From SAR324 cluster bacterium (GTDB lineage: Bacteria > Bdellovibrionota > UBA2361 > JAAZON01), in the NCBI GenBank assembly GCA_012797725.1, contig JAAZON010000596.1, positions 1 through 10,177 on the forward strand: 10,177 nucleotides of DNA, given 5' to 3'. The translations under genes and the position numbers were made by a program. Below the pieces are notes generated by a model. It was not told the DNA's origin and ran no database searches. It worked only from the letters and a program-made list of their open reading frames with translations. Positions 1,881-8,686 of the stretch are shown piece by piece (the first letter of the stretch is position 1; each line of letters starts with the position of its first letter).

Positions 1881-2237
1881 ATGTGGGATGCAATTTCATT
1901 TCTCGAAAGTGATGGAGTTCAATATAACGCCACCTCTGATAGCCGAATTTTGATACCTGTTCCTAGTCAAGAAGAGTACTTTCTATCCTTGTTGTTTGCT
2001 TCACTTAGTTTGTTGTGTTTATGCTCAGCCGTATTTTTTAGACAACCTAATTTAAACAGTGCTTATTTGGTGCAAGAAAGTTTCATAAATATGCAAGCTG
2101 TTGTTGTCAAGCCTACAAAAAATGCGCAGGGAAAAGAGGTTAAGCGTCCCTACGTGCGGCCAAGTATAAAAGATCTAGGAAAGGTTGACGAGAAGACCGA
2201 ATATACTACTCCCTCGGGAACTACTTATTCCACTTAG
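1881..2237 (+). CDS. Lasso-type RiPP precursor peptide with N-terminal extension
   Basis: Precursor peptide (A protein) of a lasso-like RiPP system. Its last 48 residues, from the internal ATG at 2091, have the size and layout of a lasso precursor: a charged leader with YVRPSIKDLG at 91-100 and T106, matching the leader pattern YxxPx[LI]..xG.....T recognised by the B1 RRE and cut by B2. The predicted core follows E107. The 118-residue form starting at 1881 has the stronger Shine-Dalgarno and adds 70 residues, including a hydrophobic segment at about 33-53 after PVPS (26-29). This is vaguely like a PEP-CTERM tail but is internal. That extension may be a real membrane anchor or noncoding sequence that happens to be open. 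The RRE gene follows after 137 bases. Identification rests on the leader motif and neighbours, not on overall similarity. Confidence 0.75.
   Translation: MWDAISFLESDGVQYNATSDSRILIPVPSQEEYFLSLLFASLSLLCLCSAVFFRQPNLNSAYLVQESFINMQAVVVKPTKNAQGKEVKRPYVRPSIKDLGKVDEKTEYTTPSGTTYST
2202..2234 (+). other. Predicted core peptide YTTPSGTTYST
   Basis: The 11 codons before the TAG stop would remain after cleavage two residues beyond the conserved leader Thr106 (T-E, then the core). Composition is Tyr2, Thr5, Ser2, Pro1, Gly1: nine of eleven side chains carry a hydroxyl. There is no Asp or Glu at positions 7-9 or elsewhere, so the usual lasso macrolactam cannot form. There is also no Cys. YTTPSGTTY is nearly palindromic around PSG. 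The cleavage site is inferred from the lasso rule. If cleavage falls elsewhere, for example before E107 or after Y108, the Ser/Thr richness still holds. Confidence 0.5.
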
Positions 2238-2727: not shown

Positions 2728-3639
2728 TTGGTACTAATTGGTGTGAGCTATTTATATAATGCCTATGGTTACACAATTCACTCAGAAAAGGAGCTTCTGC
2801 TTCATAGAGCGACAAGTAATCACATAGATTTTACTATCGAATTTAAGCAAGAAAACCAAACCACGGATGACATAGAGCATATCGAGGTTAAGAAACTGAG
2901 TTCACATATGGAATTTAGTTTTCCCAAGTATGGGAGTGCTAATATTTATAGAACGCACATTGAAGCATTTGAAAGTCCAAGTTTGTCAATTTTTGAGAGA
3001 ACAGAATTCATCGCGCAAAATATTATTCTTATGCTTCATGTCCTTAAGGGAAGCATAGTCATTCATGCAGCTTCTGTTATTATTGGGGATAAGGCTTATT
3101 GTATAGCAGGTGCTCACGCAAGTGGGAAATCAACACTTACAGCAGCCTTATTGCTAAATGGATATGGCGTCCTAGCGGACGAATTTAGTATTCTTACGGT
3201 TTCAAAGAAAGATAATAGAATTATCGCACAACCGGGCAAAGGTTGGATTTCAATTAATAAAGATGTTGTCTCAGTCTTCAAAGGAAACCATGAGTTTATT
3301 GGCGAAAGTTCAGGAAAATTTTGTGTGCGGACTCCAAGTTGTCAGGCGGTGGAATGTAAGGCGATCGTTTTCTTGAATATTCTTGGGGTCGAATCTCCAA
3401 CCCATGGGGATGATCTGGATTTATTCTCTTCATTGTTTCAGCATTTGAAGATACCTGGTCATCAAGGAGCCCTGGCCCCGGGTCTTTTTCTAGAAAATTT
3501 GTGTTACATAACAAAAAATTTGAAGATGCTGAACTTTCGTAGGCAAAAATCCTTAAATTATTTAAATGATGATGTTTCAAATTTTCTAACAGATATTGCA
3601 GCTTTAAACAAAGACTCTTTGTTGGGTTATATGGAATGA
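2728..3639 (+). CDS. HPr kinase-like peptide kinase (paeninodin K type)
   Basis: P-loop kinase of the HprK-related family found in RiPP clusters. In the paeninodin lasso system the homologous enzyme phosphorylates the C-terminal serine side chain of the precursor. Motifs: VIHAASV before the nucleotide site, Walker A GAHASGKS at 128-135, and LADEF at 149-153 with D151/E152 in the place of the HprK catalytic acid. The 303-residue length is typical. The start is TTG at 2728 or GTG at 2743; an in-frame TAA at 2713 limits it, and the usual family beginning (Y..YG..I.SE..L) starts at about residue 8. The stop overlaps the next ATG (ATGA, 3636-3639), implying translational coupling to B2. A plausible substrate is the precursor tail, which ends ...Y-S-T, with serine penultimate rather than terminal. 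Canonical HPr regulation is unlikely. Confidence 0.85.
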   Translation: MVLIGVSYLYNAYGYTIHSEKELLLHRATSNHIDFTIEFKQENQTTDDIEHIEVKKLSSHMEFSFPKYGSANIYRTHIEAFESPSLSIFERTEFIAQNIILMLHVLKGSIVIHAASVIIGDKAYCIAGAHASGKSTLTAALLLNGYGVLADEFSILTVSKKDNRIIAQPGKGWISINKDVVSVFKGNHEFIGESSGKFCVRTPSCQAVECKAIVFLNILGVESPTHGDDLDLFSSLFQHLKIPGHQGALAPGLFLENLCYITKNLKMLNFRRQKSLNYLNDDVSNFLTDIAALNKDSLLGYME

Positions 3640-4064
3640 AAAAGGTTAAAATCTTTAAAACAGTCTTTTTGACAATATGCGAGAGCATAAGGTTGACTAG
3701 TCAGCGTGTGTTCCATAATGAGTCAATTAATAGAGAGATTTTAGACGGACTCTTGTCAATCAGTGAGAAGAATGAATTTTCTGATCGAAATGAACCCTCA
3801 ATCATTCAGATAATTAATAGGACATTAAAGTTGATTCCATGGTGCAATAACTGTTTGGTACGTTCATTGGTTATGAAAAGAGTCCTTAGGATTTATGGAA
3901 TTGAGTCTACACTCAGACTAGGTTGTAATAGTTCAATAGAAAGCTTTAAGGCACATGCATGGATAAGCGTTGGTGGTATTGATTATTTCCGTTATCGAAA
4001 CAGGAATCCTTTTGAGTACACTAATATTTCAGCAAGCAGCGAGAGGCTTCCTAATGATACCTAA
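3636..4064 (+). CDS. Lasso-type B2 leader peptidase (transglutaminase-like fold)
   Basis: Cysteine protease of the lasso B2 / transglutaminase-core-3 family, which removes the leader from the RRE-bound precursor. The hallmark CLVRSLVMKRVLRIYGI at 73-89 contains the nucleophile Cys73, and KAHAWISVGG at 106-114 contains His107. The third catalytic acid is not obvious: D116 is nine residues after the His, closer than the roughly twelve seen in McjB. The 142-residue length fits a stand-alone B2 protein. The start codon overlaps the kinase stop by 4 bases, and the next gene starts 2 bases after its stop. An active B2 beside an RRE and a YxxP leader is the strongest evidence for leader cleavage in this locus. 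Confidence 0.88.
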   Translation: MKKVKIFKTVFLTICESIRLTSQRVFHNESINREILDGLLSISEKNEFSDRNEPSIIQIINRTLKLIPWCNNCLVRSLVMKRVLRIYGIESTLRLGCNSSIESFKAHAWISVGGIDYFRYRNRNPFEYTNISASSERLPNDT

Positions 4065-4066
4065 CT

Positions 4067-5284
4067 ATGAAGACAAATTCTGAAGAGAAAGTTAAAGTCA
4101 GTATTATAATCTGTCAGACAGCAAAGAAATGGGAGAGCATATTGCTGGAGGAGATCCTCGATTCTCTAACCAGACAAGAACCAAGAGAGCTTTGTCTTGA
4201 GGTGATTGTAGTGAGTTCTCGAGCGTGCATCAACATTAATCAAGAACATAATTTCAAGTCATTGAAAATGGTGAAATGCTCTAGAGGTACTCCAGCTTGG
4301 AAGAGAAAAAATCTTGGGGCTCATGAAAGCAAGGGAGACTTTTTGCTTTTTGTTAACCGAGGGGTTCGTTTTTCCCCTGATTATTTGAAGAATTTAATTC
4401 AACATTTGGAGCTTGTATCTGTGGTGGCTGTACAAGGTCGTGGTCTTGAAAGGGGTGATACTGATATAACTTCTTATCCGAGAGTTGCTGGCTTCAAAAG
4501 AATATTCCGAGTCCCTTATCTTGATGATACCGGCGTTTTAATTAGGCGTAGCATTTTCAATGCTCTTGGTGGATTTGGCCCCTTTCATGCAGGCTTCGAT
4601 TGGATCGATTTGAGTTGGCGAATTCTTTTTTCTGACTGCCTTATTGCATATGAGACAAAAGCAGTATTCTATGAACTTGAGAGTGAACAAGTCATACAAG
4701 ATAGTTTTCGAAAAGGCTGGGAAATGGCAGCTTTTATAATTCGTTGGAAAGAAGTACTTTTTGTTTCATTAAGACTGAAACGAATTGCGTTCAGAACCAA
4801 TGAGAGGCTGCGAAGATGTCTGCATTGCTTCTTTGATATGCGAAACCTAATAGAATTAAAGGATTTAACCCAGTTTATCGTGGTATGTTTTTTAAGAGTT
4901 TCAGGTTTTATTTTTGGGATTCCGAGTGCACTACTTTTGAAACGTGGAAAGAAGCACGTACTTGAAGTTGATCGGACTCTTAGCTGGGTAGAGAAGGATA
5001 ATGCTCGAATTCAAGGGAAAAGGGTACCTACTACTTTTTTTTATTTGAATGGCGAATTTCTTTTTGCAGGTCGTATAAGCGTTATTAGTCATTCGGGATT
5101 TATCGGAGCCGAAAGAGAGTTTCTCATATCCTGGCTAAATGGTCAGTGTGAACCTGGGATTTTGAGAAAAAATTATACAGACCAACCCTCTCAAATTTCA
5201 TTAACAGAAAAAGATCTTCTTAGAAGTATGGCGAAAAAAATGATTCAAGAAGGTATACTGGAAAAATCAAAGGCATATCTATGA
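4067..5284 (+). CDS. GT2-like glycosyltransferase with C-terminal RRE-like extension
   Basis: N-terminal GT-A (family 2-like) domain, about residues 8-205: VSIIICQTAK at 11-20, GTPAWKRKNLGAHESKGDFLLF at 74-95 (the usual A-R-N-x-G....G region), and GGFGPFHAGFDWIDLSWR at 168-185 with the likely general-base acid. The metal-binding DxD that should follow FLLF is replaced by NRG (97-99), so activity may be altered, or it may act as a scaffold. A hydrophobic stretch lies at about 269-291. Residues about 324-402 form a separate region ending LTEKDLLRSMAKKMIQEGIL; its order (strands, WLNGQ helix, terminal helices) resembles a PqqD/RRE winged helix, though this is an impression. It sits 2 bases after B2, and its stop overlaps the next start (ATGA, 5281-5284). 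Inferred role: adding sugar to the leader-bound precursor. Confidence 0.8.
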   Translation: MKTNSEEKVKVSIIICQTAKKWESILLEEILDSLTRQEPRELCLEVIVVSSRACININQEHNFKSLKMVKCSRGTPAWKRKNLGAHESKGDFLLFVNRGVRFSPDYLKNLIQHLELVSVVAVQGRGLERGDTDITSYPRVAGFKRIFRVPYLDDTGVLIRRSIFNALGGFGPFHAGFDWIDLSWRILFSDCLIAYETKAVFYELESEQVIQDSFRKGWEMAAFIIRWKEVLFVSLRLKRIAFRTNERLRRCLHCFFDMRNLIELKDLTQFIVVCFLRVSGFIFGIPSALLLKRGKKHVLEVDRTLSWVEKDNARIQGKRVPTTFFYLNGEFLFAGRISVISHSGFIGAEREFLISWLNGQCEPGILRKNYTDQPSQISLTEKDLLRSMAKKMIQEGILEKSKAYL

Positions 5285-6162
5285 GTAAAGTCACACTTGG
5301 AATGAGCACTTATGATGACTTTGATGGAGTTTATTTTTCTTGTCAGGGGAATCGTCTATTGCATCCAATACTTGATTTAGACGGAGAAATTATTGTTATC
5401 GATAATAATCCTAATAGCAGTCATGGAGCTGCAACAAAACACTTTTGCAATAAATCGAAATTCATCAAGTATATTCCATTTACAAAGTATCAAGGAACCG
5501 CAGTTCGAAGTGAGCTTTTCAATTATTCCAAGTCTGAAATAGTAATCTGTATTGACTCTCATGTATTACTTGCACCGGGAGCTATAGATGCCGTTGTCAA
5601 ATACTTGAGTTTGGAGCAAACAGATTCGCCAATACTTGTTCAAGGCCCAAGGCTATACGATAACTTGTCTCATTGCTCTCTTAAATGGTTAAACATTTGG
5701 AGTGCGACCATGCTGGGGAAATGGGCGCCGACCATTCCTGTTGATACTATTGGTAATGAGGCTTTTGAAATTGAGAATCAAGGTCTAGGAGCTTTTGCCT
5801 GCAGAAGAAAAGAATGGTTGGGTCTCAATCCTCTGTTCCGTGGCTTCGGGGGTGAGGAGGGATATATTCAACGTAAGTATCAATTAGCAGGTGGCAAAGT
5901 TGTGTGCATTCCAGAATTTAAATGGATCCATCGCTTTGATCGTCCCAATGGGATTCCATACAGATGTAATTTGAAAGATCGTTTGTTTAATTACTTTTTG
6001 GGGGCATTTGAACTGAAACTTTCCACAGATTCTATAGTAGAAAACTTCCGTGCCCTGTTGAGTGATTTTCACGTTAGAGCAATATTCAAAGAAGCTCTGA
6101 AGGCATATAACAAGAGTAAAACAGACAGTTCGCTAAAGCTTGATAATTCTGGTGAAAATTGA
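5281..6162 (+). CDS. GT-A glycosyltransferase with polypeptide GalNAc-T-like motifs
   Basis: GT-A fold glycosyltransferase of 293 residues without a membrane segment. Visible elements: a nucleotide-sugar start (VTLGMST at 4-10, IDNNPNSS at 40-47), the metal motif as DxH (ICIDSHVLLAPGAI, D92-S93-H94), and FRGFGGEEGYIQRKYQLAGG at 186-205 followed by PEFKWIHRF at 211-219. In eukaryotic polypeptide GalNAc-transferases the metal motif is also DxH, and an acceptor-side segment runs W-G-G-E-N..E...R....GG....P....GH.FR; the order and spacing here are similar. That is a motif-level likeness only. It overlaps the preceding transferase by 4 bases as last gene of the plus-strand unit, and its stop is 25 bases from the convergent radical SAM gene. 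A Ser/Thr-rich core upstream makes peptide O-glycosylation a reasonable hypothesis. Confidence 0.82.
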   Translation: MSKVTLGMSTYDDFDGVYFSCQGNRLLHPILDLDGEIIVIDNNPNSSHGAATKHFCNKSKFIKYIPFTKYQGTAVRSELFNYSKSEIVICIDSHVLLAPGAIDAVVKYLSLEQTDSPILVQGPRLYDNLSHCSLKWLNIWSATMLGKWAPTIPVDTIGNEAFEIENQGLGAFACRRKEWLGLNPLFRGFGGEEGYIQRKYQLAGGKVVCIPEFKWIHRFDRPNGIPYRCNLKDRLFNYFLGAFELKLSTDSIVENFRALLSDFHVRAIFKEALKAYNKSKTDSSLKLDNSGEN

Positions 6163-6187: not shown

Positions 6188-7099
6188 CTAATCGGCCAAG
6201 TGAAATGCTCTTCTAATTCTTCGGGAAGCTCTTGCTATGATATTTTTGGTCCTTGCCCAGGGACCAAGGGCAAATACGCAATAACGACAGAATTTATCCT
6301 TTAACATTTTTTCAGCTACTTTGTGTTGAGGGCAGGACAATAGACATTGAAGACTTTGGTCTTTAAGATTCCCAAAAGATGTCTTTTTATAATAATCATG
6401 ACAACACAAATAGACATTACCTTCTACACCTATATAAATATTAGATGTGTAATGAGCGCCACAAAAAAGAAGACTTGGGTATGAATGCTCCACATAGGTT
6501 CCCACTCCTTTTAACATTCCAGCTCTATTAACCAAAGAAGCTTGCACAGCCTTTGCTGAATACACGGTGGCCCATTGAAGAACCCTTTGGAAGTCTTGTT
6601 TGTGTTCTGGGCTCCCATCCCCATGTACTACAAAAAGGACTCTTTTTGCGAGCTTAGGATTTTCCTCAAGAAAAATACTCATTGATTTTATGTGCTTTTG
6701 CGCCTCAAATTGAGTTATTCCAACCAATTTTGATAAGCGTTCAGGCTCACATGACGGCATGTTTATATGAAAGTTTGTAATTTTCGGATTATATTCTCGA
6801 AGAAATCTTTGTATTTTGTTGGTCATACAAGAAGCATTACTGATCCACCAATATGTGAAACCAAATTTGTTCAAAAGCATTAAACGGTCTATAAAAAAAG
6901 GGTCCATAGAAGGTTCGTTATAAGCAGCAAAAGAAATAAGAGGAAGTGGCATTTTTTTGCAGAATGAGATTATTTGTTTCAAGATCTCCTCAAAGGATTT
7001 CATTTCCATTACTTTTTCGGGTGGAGCTTCATATTGGGAATTTTGGCAATACCAGCAGCTGAAATTACATTTTGTGTTGACTTCAATTTGAACGATCAT
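6188..7099 (-). CDS. Radical SAM protein with SPASM-like C-terminus
   Basis: Radical SAM enzyme of 303 residues. The [4Fe-4S]-SAM motif is CNFSCWYC (C11, C15, C18) near the N-terminus, as in the SPASM group. YNEPSMDP at 60-67 stands for the usual GGEP segment. The C-terminal part has C213, an EGNVYLCC segment (C232/C233), SFGNL at 241-245 and CRYC (C271, C274), enough for one auxiliary Fe-S cluster of SPASM or twitch type. Such enzymes modify RiPP precursors, mature proteins or build cofactors; the substrate cannot be read from the sequence. No N-terminal RRE domain is present, so leader recognition would need the separate PqqD protein. ATG at 7099 has no evident Shine-Dalgarno, and it is 15 bases after the transglycosylase stop, so the two are probably co-transcribed. 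It converges tail to tail on the peptide operon. Confidence 0.88.
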   Translation of the reverse strand: MIVQIEVNTKCNFSCWYCQNSQYEAPPEKVMEMKSFEEILKQIISFCKKMPLPLISFAAYNEPSMDPFFIDRLMLLNKFGFTYWWISNASCMTNKIQRFLREYNPKITNFHINMPSCEPERLSKLVGITQFEAQKHIKSMSIFLEENPKLAKRVLFVVHGDGSPEHKQDFQRVLQWATVYSAKAVQASLVNRAGMLKGVGTYVEHSYPSLLFCGAHYTSNIYIGVEGNVYLCCHDYYKKTSFGNLKDQSLQCLLSCPQHKVAEKMLKDKFCRYCVFALGPWARTKNIIARASRRIRRAFHLAD

Positions 7100-8091: not shown

Positions 8092-8421
8092 TCACTTCCT
8101 AAGATTCTTGTCTCTCCCAACCACTATTCCTCCTAAAAAGACAAGTATGAGTGCAAGCTATATGCGAAAATGCAACTCGATTGATAAATAAATGCTTGCG
8201 AGAATGGTTGATGCGATTGGAGTTAAATTTGCAAGGACTCTCACTTGGATTATGTCTCCATGTCGCATGGCGAAATCCCAGAGTATATATCCAACCGCCG
8301 TGAATGCGGTCAAAAATCCAATTTCGAAAGATGTAGTTGTCTAGAGATTTGAAGTTTCAGGATGCGCTAGTCGAAAAACAGATGCAATGAAGACATTTCG
8401 TAGCATAAAATATAGACATTA
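8092..8421 (-). pseudogene. Decayed DMT/EamA (YddG-like) exporter, C-terminal part
   Basis: Reading the minus strand in one frame from 8340 to 8161 gives 60 residues, including EIGFLTAFTAVGYILWDFAM and RVLANLTPIASTILASIYLS, the pattern of the last two conserved transmembrane helices of drug/metabolite transporter (EamA) proteins. The W-D-F-A-M..GD....L..LTP....L arrangement recalls aromatic amino-acid exporters of the YddG type. After an in-frame TAG (8158-8160) the same frame continues with LALILVFLGGIVVGRDK and ends at TGA (8092-8094), matching a normal final helix. Another in-frame TAG (8341-8343) precedes the good part. The 25 codons before it, back to TAA (8419-8421), are only weakly membrane-like. 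The rest of the gene is missing. This is a truncated pseudogene carrying at least two stops; the part upstream of 8343 is less certain. Confidence 0.65.
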
Positions 8422-8428
8422 ATGCGCC

Positions 8429-8686
8429 ATGAAAGGCGCCTTCGATGGTGAGCAAGCAAACCATCCAGTAGTTTTTTTGCTGTGCCAAGGGATGAGTTTC
8501 TCTCTTGCAACTGATGATCCTATAGTACAAGGAATCAAAGACCCGAAAGCAGAATTGCCGGTAGCTCAGGAATTATTAGGTGCAGAAAGAAGTGATCTGA
8601 ATCAGCAAGGGAAAAATGCTAATAATGCAGCGTTTATTCGGAGTGATCTTCGCAAGCAGTACAAGGATAAATCAGGGATCGGTTAG
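8429..8686 (+). pseudogene. Adenosine/AMP deaminase-like C-terminal fragment
   Basis: The open frame encodes 85 residues with NHPVVFLLCQGMSFSLATDDP at about 11-31. This matches the metal-site segment of the adenosine/AMP deaminase superfamily (HP....L..G....L.TDDP), where the first Asp of TDDP is a zinc ligand. The remainder (PVAQELLGAERSDL at 44-57, NANNAAFI at 63-70) follows the order of the C-terminal helices (E...A.. LG....DL...  NA...AF). The N-terminal roughly three quarters of the enzyme, including the HxH zinc motif, is absent; an in-frame TAA lies at 8420-8422. It therefore cannot be an active deaminase and is best read as a gene remnant, though the fragment itself has no internal stop. 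Match to adenosine versus AMP deaminase is undecided. Confidence 0.55.

Follow-up and report, generated by a model that had tools for sequence, protein, structure and literature searches.

A 10,177-nucleotide contig of a SAR324 cluster bacterium (GenBank assembly GCA_012797725.1, contig JAAZON010000596.1), the whole of which was analysed and is called the window here, carries on its + strand a small open reading frame (ORF) followed by genes for a PqqD-family protein, an HprK-related kinase, a B2 leader peptidase and two GT2-type proteins, in that order. From the kinase onwards the genes are closely spaced: kinase and B2 overlap by 4 bases, B2 and GT2 protein 1 are separated by 2 bases, and GT2 proteins 1 and 2 overlap by 4 bases. 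We read the set as a cluster for a ribosomally synthesized and post-translationally modified peptide (RiPP), in which recognition and cleavage of a lasso-type leader proceed without a lasso cyclase and give a linear phosphorylated glycopeptide; the case for this reading is evenly balanced. The features on which it draws are the following.

1881-2237, + strand: precursor ORF, long form, 118 residues; its N-terminal part includes a hydrophobic stretch, and a gaggag resembling a Shine-Dalgarno sequence precedes ATG 1881 (both by eye)
2091-2237, + strand: precursor, short form, 48 residues, composed of a 37-residue leader and an 11-residue core
2151-2198, + strand: lasso-type leader motif Y(-17)xxP(-14)xI(-12)xxxG(-8)xxxxxT(-2), from a pattern search with Markov resampling
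2202-2234, + strand: predicted core YTTPSGTTYST with a likewise predicted boundary, no Asp or Glu
2375-2686, + strand: PqqD-family discrete RiPP recognition element (RRE), B1-like (PF05402, 2.2e-13)
2743-3639, + strand: HprK-related kinase, starting at GTG 2743 or at TTG 2728, with H108, P-loop GAHASGKST and D146-E147
3636-4064, + strand: B2 leader peptidase, transglutaminase-like (NF033537, 9.6e-14, over its cut-off; PF13471)
4067-5284, + strand: GT2-type protein 1, MftF-like over residues 9-200 (TIGR03965, 3e-11, 42.9 bits against a cut-off of 280)
5281-6162, + strand: GT2-type protein 2, with a modelled fold like that of mucin-type polypeptide N-acetylgalactosamine (GalNAc)-transferases and invariant D92, H94, E192 and H217

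The C-terminus of the 118-residue ORF reads RPYVRPSIKDLGKVDEKTE and then YTTPSGTTYST, and the last 28 residues of the frame, YVRPSIKDLGKVDEKTEYTTPSGTTYST, contain the lasso-type leader. Once Thr is set at -2, Tyr, Pro and Ile stand at -17, -14 and -12; leaders of the Bsf type have YxxPxL conserved between -17 and -12, and in previously reported lasso precursors Thr is conserved at -2 (PMC10368454; this and the other papers are cited throughout for particular passages). A search for the full register, [YW]..P.[LIVM]...G.....T, gives a single match in the window, and of 1000 first-order Markov resamples 11 contain it; the short motif [YW]xxPx[LIVAFY] alone is uninformative (13 occurrences against 7.7 expected). 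Taken with the B2 rule, the register predicts YTTPSGTTYST as the core. Nine of its eleven residues are Ser, Thr or Tyr, as the first-pass annotation had counted, and the remaining two are Pro and Gly. The frequency of Ser, Thr and Tyr across ten neighbouring proteins is 0.159, giving a binomial P of 2.6e-6 for one pre-chosen 11-mer; none of the 2779 11-mers of these proteins reaches nine such residues (maximum six), and the six frames hold 165 stop-to-stop segments of at least 30 residues, one of which has a hydroxyl-rich end like that of the core.

We are confident that the small frame is a real precursor. Its start is ambiguous between ATG 1881, which has the better Shine-Dalgarno sequence by eye, and the form beginning at 2091. 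The in-frame extension 1881-2090 (+) includes the hydrophobic stretch, scores better in codon usage than the 48-residue part, and is preceded by the best Shine-Dalgarno sequence among the genes inspected by eye; a precursor with this extension is possibly membrane-anchored.

Leader processing, probable phosphorylation and the search for a cyclase

Both the discrete RRE and the B2 peptidase by which lasso-peptide clusters are recognized are present in the window. Lasso PqqD models match the PqqD protein at 2e-9, under their cut-offs, and among its PDB matches are three lasso RREs, TfuB1 and TbiB1 included, with E values of 1e-5 to 1e-4; designed repeat proteins outrank these in the same search by summing weak stretches. 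In B2, Cys73 and His107 are kept in the alignment. The kinase matches TIGR04352 at 4.2e-11 over 55 residues (42.5 bits, where the cut-off is 200). Of the motifs of HprK-type peptide kinases it retains the His, the P-loop GKS (G128-K129-S130) and the first Asp (D146). A word-limited search of 5.8 billion proteins returned one other homologue of it, and sequence searches of genome contigs, plasmids and viral contigs returned none.

Phosphorylation of the core by this kinase is probable, and three sites come into consideration. BsfK phosphorylates core residue 3 and tolerates Thr there (PMC10368454); Thr3 of the window core shares its number with the phosphorylated Ser of BsfA and with Ser3 of four Deinococcus frames described below, and it is therefore the first candidate. 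The linear polyphosphorylated peptides (LPPs) of Bacillota are related to lasso peptides, are modified by a kinase and have no cyclase (PMC13381572, Nat Commun 2026). If numbering starts at the Tyr of the leader, the Ser that is phosphorylated in the LPP precursor LppA aligns to Thr2, which makes Thr2 the second candidate. Paeninodin kinases target a C-terminal Ser (PMC9266682), and Ser10/Thr11 is the third candidate.

No cyclase match was obtained in the 10,177-base contig with three cyclase queries. The core also lacks the Asp or Glu at positions 7-9 that a lasso core carries, being free of acidic residues altogether, so that a lasso ring as defined in the cited passage of PMC10368454 is excluded, and we regard a linear product as highly probable. 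The lasso leader machinery proposed in the first-pass annotation is thus borne out in leader register, RRE, B2 and HprK-like kinase, with no cyclase in the contig and a core unable to form the ring. An ordinary lasso cluster with a cyclase gene beyond the contig ends would account for the lasso-type leader, RRE, B2 and kinase, and the contig does end only 25 bases past the methyltransferase ORF; we nevertheless consider it very improbable, on the grounds of the acid-free core, its length and the comparison regions below, as well as the cyclase-less sets on Deinococcus plasmids.

Twenty Chloroflexota regions, covering 21 of 26 B2 places (five were left out), comprised 12 with B2 and kinase matches, 3 with B2 and cyclase but no kinase, 4 with B2 alone and 1 with cyclase alone. 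All 12 regions with B2 and kinase also carry a cyclase match within the stretch, two of the 12 kinase matches being weak (E 0.0008 and 0.0083). Acid was present at core 7-9 in 9 of 11 comparison frames, and every core in these frames had at least 18 residues, against 11 in the window. The 11 frames are those with Gly at +9 among 17 rows; the six others were set aside, including L148 (Asp8), apparently a true lasso precursor. The pattern imposed Tyr/Trp, Pro, a hydrophobic residue and Thr(-2), so the agreement in spacing is partly by construction; when Thr was not required, it stood at the expected spacing in 7 of 8 frames that looked precursor-like by eye, L136 being the one without it. Two Chloroflexota lasso-leader frames (L137:2956-3147 and L154:4817-5032) have no Asp or Glu at core 7-9 and lie in regions with cyclase and kinase; Ser, Thr and Tyr make up 11 of the 29 residues of the L154 core. 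On a Sulfitobacter indolifex plasmid (L011:7986-12339), a lasso-type set of PqqD, B2, cyclase and a kinase-profile match has a sulfotransferase gene adjacent to it.

Plasmids of Deinococcus psychrotolerans (L012:7538-9100), D. radiodurans R1 (MP1), D. wulumuqiensis and Deinococcus sp. QL22 (the last three covered by regions L157, L158 and L159) carry a PqqD gene followed by an HprK-like gene. B2 is nearby in three of the four sets, L157 being without it, and in D. psychrotolerans it is fused to an NTP-transferase domain (from a Pfam scan of L012 only). A scan of the four plasmids over their full length, which did not extend to the chromosomes of the strains, gave no Asn_synthase match. Lasso-register frames were found in L012, L157 and L158, with none in L159, and a further one in Deinococcus sp. 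KNUC1210 (L160:5581-6129) was found by precursor similarity (E 0.04), with no RRE, kinase or B2 within its 12 kb. The search pattern imposed the leader, a small residue set at +9 and T/I/V/S at -2 and left core 3 free; each of the four frames carries Ser there and lacks an acidic residue at 7-9. These sets raise our confidence in a real precursor, a linear product and phosphorylation by the kinase. In L012 and L158 the frame adjoins a gene for an ExeM/NucH extracellular endonuclease.

The GT2-type proteins and the flanking genes

GT2 protein 1 is 29% identical to the mycofactocin protein MftF over 163 columns and scores 18.3 bits against PF00535, under the 23.3-bit cut-off. Its single plasmid match is an MftF, no match was found in viral contigs, and its C-terminus, conceivably a second RRE, has no Pfam match.

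GT2 protein 2 has 293 residues, and the fold match to GalNAc-transferases (GT27), obtained with a modelled structure, covers residues 1-287. The family comprises at least 1131 proteins, with many relatives in viral contigs; D92, H94 and H217 are present in all 60 aligned sequences, which were taken from 120 listed homologues of the 1131. The model contains the GT-A fold of GT27, and the sequence contains a DXH motif and a distal His, whose correspondence to the GalNAc-transferase residues we infer from order and alignment ranges and not from coordinates; the C-terminal ricin-type lectin domain of GT27 was not found in the protein. Whether GT2 protein 2 glycosylates the core is, in our estimate, an even call. 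There were 3 weak partial matches to the family in 151 Chloroflexota genomes and 15 in 149 Spirochaetota genomes, and none in plasmids or phages. Among the homologues, P0075 has a SPASM domain joined to the GT2 protein, and P0024 is extended at its C-terminus by a stretch that looks by eye like a P-loop sulfotransferase and has no Pfam match.

Two tailoring genes lie upstream and diverge from the precursor, to which they are tied by position only.

851-1759, - strand: sulfotransferase (PF00685, 9.9e-10)
26-820, - strand: TylF-family (macrocin-type sugar) O-methyltransferase (PF05711, 1.9e-16)

The PDB matches of the TylF-family protein include sugar O-methyltransferases. That sulfation and O-methylation fall on the same product as phosphorylation is conceivable, and we hold it as a tentative suggestion. 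The list of enzymes in the first-pass annotation (an HprK-like kinase, two glycosyltransferases, a sulfotransferase and a sugar-type O-methyltransferase) is correct: PqqD, B2, GT2 protein 2, the sulfotransferase and the TylF-family protein score above curated cut-offs, and the kinase and GT2 protein 1 are recognizable below theirs.

Downstream, on the - strand, are genes for a radical SAM/SPASM protein (6188-7099), which adjoins GT2 protein 2, a transglycosylase and an M32 peptidase. The M32 peptidase reaches 40-41% identity in Spirochaetota. In viral loci with homologues of GT2 protein 2, one of 106 immediate neighbours scanned is also a radical SAM/SPASM protein (L025:8949-10001). Two short ORFs, 8158-8313 (-), weakly similar to an EamA-type transporter (E 0.0018), and 8429-8686 (+), similar to the C-terminal part of adenosine deaminase (E 1.6e-7), look like gene decay. 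Rfam gave no match in the window at gathering scores.

A proposed pathway and its competitors

Gene content, leader register, core composition and motifs are read from the sequence, and from them, together with the modelled transferase fold, we infer the reactions, their order, their sites and the joint action of the enzymes. The PqqD protein, as the RRE, would bind the YxxPxI leader motif and bring the precursor to the enzymes that modify it. The kinase would phosphorylate a core hydroxyl, most likely that of Thr3, else Thr2 or Ser10/Thr11. GT2 protein 2, with its GalNAc-transferase-like modelled fold and metal triad, would glycosylate Ser or Thr in the core, and GT2 protein 1 would assist it or extend the glycan. 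Sugars or Tyr may be the targets of the sulfotransferase and of the TylF-type enzyme. Cleavage by B2 after Thr(-2)-Glu(-1) would release an 11-residue linear phosphorylated glycopeptide.

Several observations weigh against this pathway. For the 48-residue precursor, a word search of 5.8 billion proteins, which can miss such short peptides, found no homologue, nor was one found among plasmids. The Deinococcus cores contain 4 of 23, 5 of 20, 6 of 21 and 4 of 24 Ser, Thr or Tyr residues, which makes the hydroxyl-rich core special to the window and not general. In the window kinase and its one close relative, an Asp-Glu pair replaces the Asp-Asp or other Asp-ending pair of most aligned relatives, and LppK, which phosphorylates residue 3 of its core, does not phosphorylate the S3T and S3Y variants (PMC13381572). 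GT2 protein 1 lacks the DxD motif, with VNRG opposite TDSD of the aligned MftF. The family profile of GT2 protein 2 finds GT2 enzymes (best 6h1j, E 3e-6) and no GalNAc-transferase at E <=10, and bacterial GlfT2 galactofuranosyltransferases also appear in its Foldseek list, from rank 21. GT2 protein 2 has at least 486 confirmed homologues in viral contigs (IMG/VR), one group of which adjoins PD-(D/E)XK nucleases. Profiles for RRE, kinase and B2, which do detect control loci, gave no match in 80 of these viral loci (56 after removal of near-duplicates), and 22 of 106 immediate neighbours scanned, out of 203 neighbour ORFs, are PD-(D/E)XK nucleases, so that the wider family may modify non-peptide acceptors. 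The sulfotransferase and methyltransferase genes are on the strand opposite to the precursor, and no intact transporter was found among the 16 window ORFs scanned with Pfam (of 95 listed).

The lack of homologues, the two possible starts and the weak codon score of the 48-residue part (-0.067 per codon, below the -0.028 of the lowest 70-codon window within ten genes) would fit a small frame that is no precursor, with RRE, kinase and B2 serving another substrate. The exact leader register, the placement of the frame ahead of the other genes of the set on the same strand, the unmatched core composition, and the shared leader pattern and core-3 hydroxyl of the Deinococcus frames near RRE and kinase genes argue otherwise, and we consider this explanation improbable.

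Another competitor confines the product to a simple phosphopeptide of the LPP, Bsf or Deinococcus type; the genes for the two GT2 proteins, the sulfotransferase and the methyltransferase would then be part of an adjacent locus for surface polysaccharide. Clusters for LPPs and paeninodin are often found within capsular polysaccharide loci (PMC13381572), TylF-type enzymes methylate sugars, and relatives of GT2 protein 2 occur without RRE, kinase or B2. The Deinococcus regions have RRE and kinase, mostly with B2, and the stretches inspected there show no gene annotated as a glycosyltransferase. On the other side, the GT2 genes trail B2 tightly, the fold match of GT2 protein 2 is to transferases acting on peptides, and this protein and the kinase seem to recur together. 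We think this competitor unlikely, while taking it seriously.

Our most specific proposal is a bacterial 'mucin RiPP' branch of the cyclase-less, B2-processed phosphopeptides with lasso-type leaders, its 11-residue core O-glycosylated by a GalNAc-transferase-shaped enzyme, sulfated and O-methylated; it is speculative and rather doubtful. The 'mucin-like phospho/glyco/sulfo-peptide' of the first-pass annotation stands in part: the modelled fold of GT2 protein 2 supports the mucin-like element and the Deinococcus Ser3 sets the phosphorylation, and the hydroxyl-rich core does not generalize. The search for related precursors beside PqqD, HprK and B2 genes that it had called for gave no sequence homologue and yielded Deinococcus frames that have a hydroxyl at core 3 (Ser3) and acid-free positions 7-9, as the window core does, and differ from it in hydroxyl content. 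If our proposal is true, the leader machinery of lasso peptides, B2 included, has been turned to linear peptides other than LPPs, in the window and on the Deinococcus plasmids, and a mucin-type transferase fold may O-glycosylate peptide in a bacterial RiPP pathway. The cognate 11-residue peptide beside GT2 protein 2 is a concrete candidate substrate for a family of at least 1131 proteins.

Comparison with known systems

In a literature search confined to open-licence papers, no title or abstract listed describes the gene set, and Deinococcus goes unmentioned in the ten listed of 32 papers in one result set. The first-pass annotation likewise held that no described RiPP class is known to have exactly this combination; a related class, the LPPs, has been published (PMC13381572).

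For the GT27 GalNAc-transferases, the fold is shared over about 260 residues, together with DXH, the distal His and the Glu of the GGE motif, and the acceptor Thr of the studied peptide EA2 lies between Thr and Pro, as does Thr3 of the window core (PMC11074326, PMC4388629). GT2 protein 2 differs in its low identity (12-18%, VIA rows), in having no lectin domain and in the lack of a sequence-profile match. Mycofactocin offers the parallel of a GT2 protein within an RRE-guided RiPP pathway, MftF; GT2 protein 1 differs from it at the DxD, and none of the remaining mycofactocin genes was found among the scanned ORFs.

Phosphorylated lassos of the Bsf type share RRE, B2, HprK-type kinase and the YxxPxL motif, with Ile in place of Leu in the window, and differ in having Gly1, Asp8, Ile(-2) and a macrolactam, whereas the window has Thr(-2), no acid and no cyclase in the contig (PMC10368454). 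Paeninodin and pseudomycoidin likewise have an HprK-type kinase, and pseudomycoidin carries hexoses too; they differ as lassos phosphorylated on the C-terminal Ser, with a nucleotidyltransferase homologue placing hexose on the phospho-Ser (PMC9266682).

With the LPPs, as described in the passages cited, the cluster has in common a discrete lasso-like RRE, the YxxPx leader motif, an HprK-like kinase, a linear core without cyclase, surroundings rich in glycosyltransferases, and a hydroxyl 18 residues past the motif Tyr (PMC13381572). It differs in using B2 in place of the SpI-like peptidase, of which none was found among the 16 ORFs scanned, and in the two GT2 proteins that follow. The LPP motif YxxPxVLxHQxIxFETxxS agrees clearly only at Y, P, the hydrophobic residue (+5) and T (+15), with Thr at the S position. 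The Deinococcus sets resemble the window in adjacent PqqD and HprK-like genes, in the absence of a cyclase match and, for L012, L157 and L158, in a lasso-register frame with a hydroxyl at core 3, and differ in their cores of 20-24 residues and in having no glycosyltransferase annotated in the stretches viewed. The cluster thus departs in two defining features each from the LPPs (SpI peptidase, leader motif) and from the lassos (cyclase, core acid), and is filed as a variant with a B2-processed lasso-type leader, no cyclase and GT2-rich tailoring.
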